From Candidatus Methylomirabilis sp. (GTDB lineage: Bacteria > DYJV01): a stretch of DNA of 24,553 nt. Made by a program: the position numbers and the translations under genes. This document shows, in pieces, positions 8,269-24,182 of this stretch. The notes under the pieces were generated by a model that was not told the DNA's origin, made no database searches, and saw nothing but the letters and a program-made list of their open reading frames with translations. The stretch spans positions 1 through 24,553 of the forward strand of contig DYJV01000034.1 of assembly GCA_020722945.1 (NCBI GenBank), in the 5' to 3' direction. Within the stretch, counting starts at the first letter, position 1. Each line of letters opens with the position of its first letter.

Positions 8269-8296
8269 TTAACCGTAATTCTGCTCATTGTAATAT
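8269..8296 (+). promoter_or_regulatory. Candidate promoter of the cobalamin riboswitch transcript
   Basis: TTAACC (8269-8274), a 16-nt spacer and TAATAT (8291-8296) match a housekeeping promoter moderately. The predicted transcription start at about 8303 falls just ahead of the first base of the riboswitch P1 helix (8306), which supports the assignment. Confidence 0.4.
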
Positions 8297-8305
8297 CATA
8301 ATTTA

Positions 8306-8463
8306 TTTTCTGGGTCCAAGAAATTGGTTAATAGGGAATGCCGTTAATTCGGCAGCGGGCCCGCCACTGTAAGTAGCGTTAAGCTTTCTCATTATCCCAC
8401 TGTAGATTTTTTCTATGGGAAGGGGAGAAAGTTTGCTACAAGTCAGGAGACCTACCCGGAAAA
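8306..8463 (+). ncRNA. Cobalamin (B12) riboswitch
   Basis: The aptamer is complete. Closing helix P1 pairs TTTTCTGGGT (8306-8315) with ACCCGGAAAA (8454-8463), ten pairs including one G-U. Inside are the conserved GGGAATGCCG, GCGGGCCCGCCACTGTAAG and CCACTG, then GGGAAGG, and the B12 box AGTCAGGAGACCTACC (8441-8456). These match the adenosylcobalamin/cobalamin aptamer family. A 260-nt leader separates P1 from the next start codon. The only downstream gene before strong hairpins is the 83-residue protein, so this gene is the regulatory target by position. In known cases ligand binding lowers expression; the direction here is inferred. Confidence 0.93.
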
Positions 8464-8523
8464 TTTGTATTGCTTAAGACTTCGAGGCTAAAGGTCAGGC
8501 AGTAAAAAGATCATATTTTCTCT

Positions 8524-8561
8524 ATTCAGGATATTTTTCTGAATTCAATTATTCTCTTTTT
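8524..8561 (+). terminator. Possible attenuator hairpin in the riboswitch leader
   Basis: ATTCAG (8524-8529) and CTGAAT (8539-8544) form a 6-bp stem with a 9-nt loop, followed by a T-rich run ending near 8561. It lies about 60 nt after P1, where an expression-platform terminator could sit. The stem is weak and the T tract interrupted, and no anti-terminator pairing was established by eye. Confidence 0.3.
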
Positions 8562-8723
8562 ATGCCACTCATTTTTTAACCTCTGAGTTCAATCTAACAT
8601 TTTCTTTATTTAAGCATTACAAATTAAATTATTTTATTACTTTCAACTATTATAGTTATTCAAAATAGTTGGTTTAAGTATTTTATTGTTTCTAATAATT
8701 TATCAAATAAGGGGGTGTTGATA

Positions 8724-8975
8724 ATGAAAGAGGGTAAAGTTATATTTATAGATAATATAGAATCTTTAGGAAACATTGATTTTGAGAAGTTAAAGAGTAG
8801 TTATTCAGAGAAAGATATTTATGTTGAGTTTGCTGTCGAAAATAAGATTTTAGGATTCTATTCGATACCAGAAGCAATCCTTAATTTGGTTCAGAGAGGT
8901 GTGAAGAGAGTCTCTGCTTTTCCATTTTCACTTGGAGAGAGTTATGAAGTCCCTTTGTATTGGGGGACTTATTAA
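8724..8975 (+). CDS. Unrecognised 83-residue protein under a B12 riboswitch
   Basis: I do not recognise this family. The ATG at 8724 is chosen because AAGGGGG (8709-8715) lies 8 nt upstream; a GTG at 8715 would sit on that site and adds three residues. The product is small and soluble, with no signal peptide, membrane segment or cysteine. It starts with a beta-rich, acidic part (KVIFIDNIESLGNIDFEKL), then DIYVEFAVENKILGFYSIPEAILNLVQRGVKRV, which looks like a strand, helix and strand, and ends in an aromatic tail, SAFPFSLGESYEVPLYWGTY. Its position as sole gene between a cobalamin riboswitch and two hairpins suggests a role in corrinoid or cobalt biology, or a B12-independent substitute function. 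That is inference from context alone. Codon use resembles its neighbours. Confidence 0.75.
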   Translation: MKEGKVIFIDNIESLGNIDFEKLKSSYSEKDIYVEFAVENKILGFYSIPEAILNLVQRGVKRVSAFPFSLGESYEVPLYWGTY

Positions 8976-9002
8976 TGAGTTGTAAAGCCTGTTAAGTTGT
9001 GA

Positions 9003-9038
9003 AGATAGATGGCGTTGCCCACCATCTATCTGTTTGTT
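9003..9038 (+). terminator. Intrinsic terminator after the riboswitch-linked gene
   Basis: AGATAGATGG (9003-9012) pairs perfectly with CCATCTATCT (9022-9031) around a 9-nt loop that can itself fold as GGC-GTT-GCC. It is followed by GTTTGTT. It lies 27 nt after the stop of the small protein gene. Confidence 0.65.
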
Positions 9039-9056
9039 ACTCATTTTCCCTCATTA

Positions 9057-9098
9057 AGATTGGAGTGGTTTCTGCCCTAAACCACTCCAATCTCCTTT
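9057..9098. terminator. Second, 15-bp perfect hairpin
   Basis: Bases 9057-9071 are the exact reverse complement of 9079-9093, with a 7-nt loop CTGCCCT. CCTTTATT follows on the plus strand. It comes 25 nt after the first hairpin. It may be a back-up terminator or a member of a dispersed repeat family. The rest of 9100-9265 shows no gene or clear structure. Confidence 0.6.
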
Positions 9099-9333: not shown

Positions 9334-10995
9334 ATGGGCAAAATAATAGGTAATATAAAATTCCTTGATAAAGAGAGAGAGGATAAACTTCAAAATATTA
9401 TTAAAAGAGGGGTTTCTGCTCAATCATTTTTACCCTTCTCACTTATTAATACTGTATCTAAAATATCGAGAGATATTTATAAGCAGATTGGATTAATAAT
9501 AGACCGTAAGGGTAATATCCAATATATTGTAATAGGCAATGAAAGAGAGATTCTCTGGCCCACCTTGTATCAATTTCATTTGAATAGGAGTAACCTCAGG
9601 GGAGTTATGGCTATTCATACTCACCTTCACAACCATGGGATTGATAATGAAGATTTTACAGATCTTGCCTACCTTAGGCTCGATATGATAGGTGTTATTA
9701 ATGTTTCAGATTCAGGAGAGCCTGCTTTAGTTGAATTTGCTACGATCAAGATAGAGGATGGAAAATTTAAAAGTAAAATTATCTATTCAGGCTCACTTAC
9801 TAATCTTAATATTGATTACAAATCAGAAGTAGAAAACCTTGAATATTCAATAAATCAAAACAAAATTAATCAAAATAATTTTAACAGTAATGAAAAAGTT
9901 TTGTTGGTTAATGCCTCAAAATCTTCAAAATATTTGTTGACAGAAGAGATAGAGGAGTTAAATGAGCTGGCAAAAGCTGCTGATTATCAAGTTGTAGATA
10001 CAGTTATCCAGAGGATTAATAGAGTTGATAGCTCATTTTTGATAGGGAAAGGTAAACTTAAAGAGCTTATAATAAGGAGTATTGAAAAGGGTGCTGACAA
10101 AATTATCTTCTATTCAGATCTTACTCCTGTTCAAGCTAAAAATATTGCATCATTTGTTGATATTGAAGTTATTGATAGGACTACACTTATTCTCAATATA
10201 TTTGCAAAGAGGGCATTTTCAAAAGATGGAAAGCTTAAAGTAGAACTTGCAAAGCTAAAATATCTCTTGCCTCGTGTAGTTGACAAAGCTGAAGCACTTT
10301 CAAGGATACGTGGTGGAATAGGTATAAAGGGACCTGGTGAAAAAATTGCTGATGTTGAAAGGAGAAGGATAAGGGATAGAATTAAAGGTATTGAGAATGA
10401 GCTTAAAAGTTTTGAAAAGATGAGAGAGATCAGAAGACGGAGAAGATTAAGAAATAGTATCCCTTTAGTTTCAATTGTTGGTTATACAAATTCAGGTAAA
10501 TCGACACTTTTAAATACTATTACCAATAGTGAGCTATTTGTCGAAAATCTCTATTTCGCAACACTTGATGCTTTTAGTAGAAGATTTAGGATTAGTCCAA
10601 ATATTGAAATAGTCTTAAATGATACTGTCGGATTTATCAAAAATCTCCCTAAGGATATTCTTGGTGCTTTTAAATCCACATTAGAGGAGTTAAATTATTC
10701 AGATTTGCTTATCCATCTTGTTGATCTATCTGATGAAAATTTTCAATCTTATATTGAGGAGGTTGATAAGATTTTAACAGATATTGGAGCATCTCAAATT
10801 GAGCAGATTCTTGTTTTTAACAAAATAGACAAATTAGATAAAGATATTTATGAAGAGTTGAGTAATAGGCATCAGGGGATTTTTATCTCTGCTAAAGATT
10901 TCAAATCAACCAAGCCTCTTATAGATTATTTGAATTACTTTTTTACCCATAAAGCAAAGGATGGTAAAGATTTTGGAGCAAGCAGTTTTTATTGA
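9334..10995 (+). CDS. hflX: Ribosome-associated GTPase HflX with long N-terminal extension
   Basis: HflX binds stalled or hibernating 70S/50S ribosomes and splits subunits with GTP hydrolysis. At 553 residues this is over 100 longer than common HflX. The HflX core starts near 188: N-terminal domain (ASKSSKYLLTEEIEELNELAKAADY and IGKGKLKEL), the helical middle domain with GGIGIKGPGE, then the G domain with G1 GYTNSGKST (383-391), G3 DTVGF, G4 NKID and a late SA. After GPGE the usual TxLExDRR is KIADVERR. The first 187 residues are extra. They contain GLIIDRKGNIQYIVIG and AIHTHLHNHGIDNEDFTDLAYLRLD, a layout that recalls JAB/MPN domains (His95, His97, Asp104, Asp107); this is inference. The start is ATG after AGGAG. 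The 3' end overlaps gmhB by 35 nt. Confidence 0.92.
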   Translation: MGKIIGNIKFLDKEREDKLQNIIKRGVSAQSFLPFSLINTVSKISRDIYKQIGLIIDRKGNIQYIVIGNEREILWPTLYQFHLNRSNLRGVMAIHTHLHNHGIDNEDFTDLAYLRLDMIGVINVSDSGEPALVEFATIKIEDGKFKSKIIYSGSLTNLNIDYKSEVENLEYSINQNKINQNNFNSNEKVLLVNASKSSKYLLTEEIEELNELAKAADYQVVDTVIQRINRVDSSFLIGKGKLKELIIRSIEKGADKIIFYSDLTPVQAKNIASFVDIEVIDRTTLILNIFAKRAFSKDGKLKVELAKLKYLLPRVVDKAEALSRIRGGIGIKGPGEKIADVERRRIRDRIKGIENELKSFEKMREIRRRRRLRNSIPLVSIVGYTNSGKSTLLNTITNSELFVENLYFATLDAFSRRFRISPNIEIVLNDTVGFIKNLPKDILGAFKSTLEELNYSDLLIHLVDLSDENFQSYIEEVDKILTDIGASQIEQILVFNKIDKLDKDIYEELSNRHQGIFISAKDFKSTKPLIDYLNYFFTHKAKDGKDFGASSFY

Positions 10996-22719: not shown

Positions 22720-23466
22720 ATGATGGTTGAAGATACCTTGTTTCAAGAATTTAAAGATAAAGCAGTAAAAGAGGTTATTGAGCTTGTATATATTGGAGTG
22801 GGCTATACTGCTTTACTCCTTGAGAGTGGAAGTATTGGGATAGCATATTCATACTTTGATTCTAAAAAAGGTTGCTCTCTTTTAGACATGGAAGTTGATT
22901 ATGAAAAGAAAACAGGAGAAAAACTCCTTGAGAAAATTTACAGCAATATTCCCTTTGAAAGGACAGTTGCACTTGCTCTGATAAATGCTTTGAATAATGA
23001 ATTTGCATTGAAACTTGAAGTTGATAGAGACAACTCTAAACTTTTTGAGCTTCTCGATATTTACAGTAGTAAAAAGATTGCAATGGTTGGATTTTTTGCT
23101 CCTATAGTAAATAAAATTTCAGCTTCAAACTCTGAAATAAAAATTATTGATGAAAGTCGAGAGATAGAGGATAAAGATTTTTTTAATTACCTTAATATTG
23201 CTGATTCACTTATTTTAACTTCAACATCTATATTAAATGGTAGTTTTAACTCAATTATAGAGAAAGTTAAAGATTCTAAAGTAAAAGTCATTCTGATAGG
23301 ACCATCTACCCCGATGGTGAAAAAACTTATTGATAATTATGGTATATCTATGCTTGCAGGGTCAGCTCCAAGAGAGGGCGAAGGTGTATTAAAAGCTGTA
23401 AGACATGGCAAAGGGACACCAATAATAGGTAAATACTGCAAAAAGGTCTATATGTCTAAATATTAA
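22720..23466 (+). CDS. DUF4213/DUF364 putative heavy-metal chelation protein
   Basis: This 248-residue cytosolic protein has the two-part layout of the family. A DUF4213-like N-terminal region (about 5-90, including ERTVALALINALNN) is followed by a DUF364 Rossmann-like region (about 95-248). The latter contains KIAMVGFFAPIVNKI, NIADSLILTSTSILNGSFNSII, VILIGPSTPMVKKLI and a terminal AREGEGVLKAV-like stretch (APREGEGVLKAVRHGKGTP). Family members are annotated as putative chelators of heavy metals, and some accompany molybdenum, nickel or cobalt systems; a defined reaction is lacking. It converges on cobI with only 5 nt between the stop codons, which suggests but does not prove a link to cobalt or corrinoid handling. 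The start ATG has AAAGGA 6 nt upstream; a second ATG follows directly. Confidence 0.85.
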   Translation: MMVEDTLFQEFKDKAVKEVIELVYIGVGYTALLLESGSIGIAYSYFDSKKGCSLLDMEVDYEKKTGEKLLEKIYSNIPFERTVALALINALNNEFALKLEVDRDNSKLFELLDIYSSKKIAMVGFFAPIVNKISASNSEIKIIDESREIEDKDFFNYLNIADSLILTSTSILNGSFNSIIEKVKDSKVKVILIGPSTPMVKKLIDNYGISMLAGSAPREGEGVLKAVRHGKGTPIIGKYCKKVYMSKY

Positions 23467-23471
23467 AAAAA

Positions 23472-24182
23472 TTATTTTTTGAGAAGTAGTATAGATAGAT
23501 ATTTTTGGATGCTGTCATCCTGAAGCTCACTGCTTGAGATATCAAAATTAATTTCTTGGTTTGGGAGGCATATATTTTTCATATGTATGATTTTGGAGAA
23601 TTTTTTACTTTTGATGAAATTCACAATTTCAGAAGATTTTTTAGGGATTTTCATTAATACGAGAGAATTGGAATTTTCATATAATGAATTGAATCTCTCT
23701 TTAGAGAAGTGTGTCATTGGATAGATGGTAAGAACTTCATCCTCCTCTACGAGTGATGTAGATGTATTGGCTGCAAGAGATGAAAATGATGTTATTCCGG
23801 GAATAGTTTCAAATGAGAGGTTGCTTATAGCTTTTCTAAGTTTGTCAAGTATATAGCTGTAAGTGCTGTAAAGAGTAGTATCACCCAATGTTACAAAGAC
23901 AACATCAAGTCCTTTATTAATGTCTATTTTTATCTCTTCTATAACTTTATCTCGATGGCTGTCAAGAATATCTGATTTGTAAGACATTGAAAATATAGCA
24001 GGTTTGATCAATGAATCTTTGATGTAAGGTTTGATAGTATTGTAAGCAATACTCTTTTCTATTGTATCTTTTGTTGGAACATATATTACATCAGCGTCAG
24101 ATATAAGCTGTGCACCTTTGACTGTAACGAGATCAGGACAACCTGGTCCTATCCCAACTCCAAAGAATTTACCTTTTTTCAT
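23472..24182 (-). CDS. cobI: Precorrin-2 / cobalt-factor-II C20-methyltransferase
   Basis: This 236-residue SAM-dependent methylase adds the C20 methyl group in corrin ring assembly. The tetrapyrrole methylase fold is recognised from FFGVGIGPG (6-14), SDADVIYVP, VTLGDTTLYSTYSYIL (98-112) and ETIPGITSFSSLAA. The LYSTYxYIL form after the GD motif marks the CobI/CbiL subgroup. Two positions are unusual: the normally acidic GPGDP loop reads GPGC15P, and GDP is GDT (101-102). Whether the substrate is cobalt-free (CobI) or cobalt-containing (CbiL) cannot be told. AAAGGGA lies just before the ATG and a good promoter lies 75 nt upstream. No riboswitch fits in the short leader. No other corrin gene is in the window. 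Confidence 0.9.
   Translation of the reverse strand: MKKGKFFGVGIGPGCPDLVTVKGAQLISDADVIYVPTKDTIEKSIAYNTIKPYIKDSLIKPAIFSMSYKSDILDSHRDKVIEEIKIDINKGLDVVFVTLGDTTLYSTYSYILDKLRKAISNLSFETIPGITSFSSLAANTSTSLVEEDEVLTIYPMTHFSKERFNSLYENSNSLVLMKIPKKSSEIVNFIKSKKFSKIIHMKNICLPNQEINFDISSSELQDDSIQKYLSILLLKK

Follow-up and report, generated by a model that had tools for sequence, protein, structure and literature searches.

The locus lies in a 24,553-nucleotide contig of Candidatus Methylomirabilis sp. (DYJV01000034.1, assembly GCA_020722945.1), which we call the window. There, a cobalamin riboswitch aptamer precedes a short gene that is followed by two hairpins (Table 1). In a cmscan search, the aptamer matched RF00174 with 103.6 bits (gathering score 31.5, E 3e-25) over model positions 1 to 189, i.e., a full aptamer with its B12 box, far beyond chance. 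An earlier note on this DNA had called the aptamer intact from P1 to the B12 box, which these data bear out, with a start at 8306 that falls slightly within it. After a gap of ~250 nt, an open reading frame with a good upstream Shine-Dalgarno sequence runs from an ATG at 8724 to a stop at 8975 and encodes a protein of 83 residues, P0001; an alternative in-frame GTG start at 8715 would yield 86 residues. The two hairpins that had been reported right after the small gene were also recovered, the second of them within a 61-nt stretch that folds with -22.5 kcal/mol (z = -6.5). Because both hairpins lie 3' of the gene and no further gene begins on this strand until hflX at 9334 (358 nt further on), the P0001 gene is very probably a single-gene unit.

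Table 1. Features of the riboswitch and its downstream gene in the window.
Feature	Position	Strand	Basis
Cobalamin riboswitch aptamer (RF00174), P1 to B12 box	8295..8473	+	cmscan; sister of the G001 aptamer, support 0.993
P13/L13-like arm, loop CTTCGAGGCTAAAGG conserved in G001	8471..8501	+	comparison with the G001 leader
Possible L13-arm partner, contains ACCTC (could also pair with the Shine-Dalgarno sequence)	8563..8590	+	duplex prediction, weak
Shine-Dalgarno sequence AAGGGGGTG	8709..8717	+	sequence
Mini-chelatase-like protein P0001, 83 aa, 0 His, 0 Cys	8724..8975	+	homologue 55% identical; codon pattern 24/17/44; CbiX profile; fold match
Hairpin 3' of gene	9003..9031	+	fold z -2.9 for 8976-9050
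15-pair hairpin, T run weak, probably terminates the unit	9057..9093	+	folding

A homologue of P0001 was found in G001 (JALVYZ01), a MAG of 92% completeness that belongs to another family of the same order and is the only other genome of the phylum among those examined. This homologue, P0002, has 76 residues and shares 55% identity with P0001. Its gene spans the ends of two contigs with an exact 127-base overlap; one of these contigs carries the riboswitch, the Shine-Dalgarno sequence, the start codon, and the gene's first 22 codons. The riboswitch upstream of P0002 scores 125.6 bits against RF00174, and its aptamer is, among the aptamers compared, the sister of that in the window (75% identical, with all others at ≤60.2%). 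The P0002 gene also appears to form a single-gene unit, since the genes downstream run toward it. The pairing of a cobalamin riboswitch with this gene, which we describe below as mini-chelatase-like, is conserved across two families. Over 76 codons, the two genes differ at 24, 17, and 44 sites in codon positions 1, 2, and 3, with a dN of 0.34 and saturated synonymous sites, which shows purifying selection on the gene.

Searches of wider scope returned G001 as the only genome with a homologue: a homologue search in 60 genomes, a profile of the two sequences run against 386 genomes, and a scan of genome contigs. Ten weak profile matches (E 0.009 to 0.05) were unrelated proteins (an acyl-CoA ligase, a GTPase, a GGDEF protein, and others) and were fewer than expected by chance. 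The first reading frames behind 29 cobalamin riboswitches in other genomes, crudely called, contained no second mini-chelatase. The main limit on every argument made here is that the family has been found in just two genomes. The earlier note had proposed a riboswitch with a single small gene of undescribed function as its target and had named homologues in unrelated operons without a riboswitch as one finding that would speak against it. The profile search with the 83-residue protein that it had suggested returned the opposite, as the one genome with a homologue has it behind a cobalamin riboswitch, and the proposal thus still stands.

Comparison of the two leaders gave a partial view of how the riboswitch might act. 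The L13 arm shows one compensatory change in its stem between the leaders (GAC/GTC versus GGC/GCC). The G001 leader contains a long complement to this arm, CCCTTTAGCCTCC, a short way upstream of the gene (-19.2 kcal/mol, with 0 of 500 shuffles as good), and the CCTCC within the complement can alternatively pair with the Shine-Dalgarno GGAGG. With an arm held by the ligand, the ribosome site would then be closed. A predicted Shine-Dalgarno-sequestering platform is accordingly clear in the G001 leader but not in the window, where the arm alone is no more stable than shuffles and its duplex with the possible partner is weak (33 of 500 shuffles were as good, a count that rises to 122 of 500 when the loop is taken by itself). 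Between aptamer and gene, the G001 leader further holds a hairpin that resembles a terminator and carries a long T run; a search for such a terminator in the window found none. For L5-L13 kissing pairs, inspection by eye gave no clear Watson-Crick match. Going by its riboswitch class, the switch in the window would act in the OFF direction.

Searches of P0001 against Pfam and NCBIfam gave no match up to E 5, and PF01903 matched neither P0001 nor P0002 even at E 10. The earlier statement that the protein has no recognized family thus stands for these searches, whereas profile and fold comparisons do link P0001 to the class II chelatases. P0001 carries a pattern that resembles CbiX, namely "[ST]IPEA..L..RGVK.V", a strand, and then "EVP" at the position of the CbiX "DIP". 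Against a home-made profile of 14 CbiX domains, P0001 scored 12.5 bits, as compared with a maximum of 8.9 for 10,000 shuffles of both proteins and of 5.2 for unrelated open frames, and the alignment of the two proteins scored 32.4 against CbiX in a profile-profile comparison, where 400 column-shuffled alignments reached at most 19.9; because the likeness was first spotted by eye and then tested, the p-values are uncorrected for other families that are conceivable. P0002 alone scored only 3.2 bits against the CbiX profile. A sequence search of the PDB had no chelatase among its matches, and BLAST of P0001 against the CbiX of its own genome was uninformative.

The predicted structures, a check that the earlier note had proposed for the 83-residue protein, gave a divided outcome. 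AlphaFold models with a mean pLDDT of 73 (P0001) and 80 (P0002), both built on one two-sequence alignment, returned no significant E-value with Foldseek against the PDB, and no chelatase appeared among the top 50 rows for P0002. By contrast, VIA-align, which takes a second look at the candidates of Foldseek, placed chelatases at the top: For the P0001 model, rows 1 to 7 were all CfbA (Z 5.0 to 5.3), followed by HemH, CbiXS, and SirB, while for the P0002 model, 19 of the top 20 rows had the class II chelatase fold (CbiX, SirB, CfbA, CbiK, or FetB; Z 4.7 to 5.9), with an rmsd of 2.6 to 3.6 over 67 to 71 of the 76 residues. We regard this fold match as a strong pattern and not as proof, since Z stays below 6 throughout (and thus below 8). 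Taking the profile comparison and the two AlphaFold models together, we consider it probable that P0001 and P0002 are of class II tetrapyrrole chelatase ancestry (CbiX, CfbA, SirB).

Several parts of CbiX are missing from the two proteins. When they are aligned with it, they lack the GHGS that follows its first strand, the loop of the second histidine is 4 or 5 residues shorter than in CbiX, and the chain stops just past the DIP position, such that the C-terminal third of the chelatase domain is absent from both proteins. P0001 and P0002 thus appear to be a shortened class II chelatase lobe. Irrespective of any alignment, neither contains a single histidine or cysteine. As chelation depends on a histidine pair, His10 and His74 in the CbiXS of A. 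fulgidus (PMC7689651), the lack of histidine rules out a standard chelatase. A cobalt carrier that binds through histidine or cysteine was rejected on the same composition, and the "cobalt-handling factor" suggested in the earlier note is unlikely in that usual sense. A histidine-free lobe does exist in nature, inside a larger chain, since fused chelatases keep the histidines in just one of their two lobes (PMC7689651).

The genomic surroundings make a chelatase relative a reasonable target. Three further cobalamin riboswitches in the window genome have ordinary targets. One precedes a TonB receptor and a CbiK whose N terminus resembles a signal peptide, another a TonB receptor and a CobN-like protein, and the third (C104, 12121-13152) a membrane protein of 241 aa with no match in NCBIfam; TolQ/ExbB-like genes come after it, and the set is possibly an uncharacterized uptake system. 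Target names for which no family is listed are what we take these genes to be. The same genome also encodes an ordinary 135-aa CbiX in which both histidine motifs are present. In G001, at 92% completeness, CbiX was not found and a CbiK-like protein was the only such chelatase. Both genomes carry CbiD and hence probably use the anaerobic route to the corrin ring. Elsewhere, CbiX or CbiK is the first gene behind a cobalamin aptamer in three genomes (G023, G024, and G030), and cbiK-cbiL is a riboswitch target in Desulfovibrio and D. psychrophila (PMC545781). The cobalamin riboswitch repeatedly has class II chelatases as targets (in the window genome, G023, G024, G030, and Desulfovibrio), which renders a chelatase relative behind such a riboswitch plausible.

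Several observations on B12 genes stand apart from this unit. At the end of the window (22720-24182), cbiL (precorrin-2 C20-methyltransferase, TIGR01467 above cut-off) lies without a riboswitch, convergent with the gene of a 248-aa protein that has no NCBIfam match and that we take to resemble a DUF364-type protein. At G030:C28:32709-33328, a cobalamin riboswitch sits directly before a CbiX-like gene with SHQS in place of GHGS, perhaps a further chelatase relative with an altered active site. At G001:C124:2616-2733, a cobalamin riboswitch precedes a coiled-coil, porin-like outer-membrane protein of at least 422 aa, which would be an unusual target, provided that the call is correct. Large insertions are present in this riboswitch and in another on G001:C199, with CCGAGCACCTGG...CCAGGTGCTCGG as their arms; the word GAGCACCT of these insertions also forms the hairpin after the mini-chelatase gene of G001, possibly a repeat that spreads in hairpins.

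We tentatively favor a reading in which P0001 is a noncatalytic chelatase lobe whose production AdoCbl represses. It would bind sirohydrochlorin or another, related corrin precursor and would serve either to carry it or to assist the true cobaltochelatase as its partner; both the tetrapyrrole binding and the role are inferred. When AdoCbl is plentiful, the aptamer would close, the L13 arm would be held, and expression would be shut off; when AdoCbl is scarce, the mini-chelatase-like protein would be made. Devoid of metal-binding histidines, it would most likely bind a precursor of the sirohydrochlorin or cobalt-sirohydrochlorin type, and it could act as a carrier or contribute the noncatalytic half of an active site that it would share with CbiX or CbiK, by which the branch-point precursor would be pulled toward cobalamin. 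A role as partner of CbiX would not be general, because G001 has a CbiK-like protein only. The corrinoid or tetrapyrrole chaperone among the candidates of the earlier note comes close to this best reading. A bolder form of it, in which a free and catalytically dead lobe, made only at scarce AdoCbl, binds the branch-point tetrapyrrole or completes a cobaltochelatase and so steers sirohydrochlorin to B12, is possible, and we hold it with greater reserve. To our knowledge, no riboswitch-controlled tetrapyrrole chaperone or partner subunit of such a kind has been described, and a literature search found no orphan small-protein target of a cobalamin riboswitch.

One alternative is that P0001 is an unrelated small alpha/beta protein, e.g., a regulator or an adaptor, and that its likeness to chelatases reflects a common arrangement. 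Z values of only 5 to 6, the nonsignificant Foldseek result, the lack of a PF01903 match, and the absence of chelatases from the PDB sequence search would all fit with this, yet the CbiX profile score exceeds all shuffles and the top fold rows belong almost purely to one superfamily for both models, and we thus think it unlikely. The protein could also block or tune, by replacing the normal lobe in a pair with CbiX or CbiK and lowering or redirecting chelation. CbiXS and CfbA function as homodimers whose active site lies where the two subunits meet (PMC7689651), and a 135-aa CbiX is at hand in the window genome; an OFF switch, however, would have the protein made at low B12, when more cobalt insertion would be wanted, and G001 offers no detected CbiX to block, which leaves this reading rather improbable.

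Two deflationary explanations fare worse. That the aptamer is real and the short gene incidental, with the transcript stopping upstream or the true target having moved away, draws on the long 250-nt stretch between aptamer and gene and on the lack of a clear platform in the window; we judge it very improbable, as the order of aptamer and gene recurs in the other family, with a platform there that could mask the Shine-Dalgarno sequence, and the window shows no terminator between the two. A functionless, decaying remnant of a riboswitch-controlled cbiX would look much like P0001, i.e., like CbiX minus its catalytic residues and C-terminal third. We give this reading the least credence of all, because the protein has been kept in two families at 55% identity with the codon pattern given above and saturated synonymous change, and because length, ends, and leader are similar or conserved in both genomes.

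Siroheme, some hemes, coenzyme F430, and B12 all derive from sirohydrochlorin, and chelatase structures alone do not account for the choice of metal at this branch point (PMC7689651). If the favored reading of a noncatalytic tetrapyrrole-binding lobe is true, a B12-controlled protein of this kind would give direct access to the question of metal choice and would extend the known range of cobalamin riboswitch targets by one protein family.

Set against known systems, the riboswitch in the window resembles the RF00174 class in its complete aptamer up to the B12 box, its CCACUG...GGGAAGG arm, and the L13-like arm that follows, and it departs from the class in its target, a small protein of no described family where synthesis, transport, or isozyme genes are usual. 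With CbiXS and CfbA, the two proteins share a predicted order of strands and helices in the first two thirds of the domain, the succession of IPEA, helix, RGVK, and strand, the EVP akin to DIP, and the link to B12; unlike these enzymes of 120 to 145 aa, they measure 76 to 83 aa and lack the GHGS, the second histidine loop, the C-terminal third, and a PF01903 match. The fused class II enzymes CbiK and CbiXL likewise have one lobe without catalytic histidines (PMC7689651), and cbiK is a known riboswitch target (PMC545781), but in them a catalytic lobe is fused to the one without histidines, whereas the mini-chelatase is free and shorter. FetB of Porphyromonas gingivalis (PDB 9b86), a chelatase-fold protein that its PDB title describes as able to hold heme, is among the fold matches of P0002, but it has ~260 aa and two lobes and stands in a different setting.
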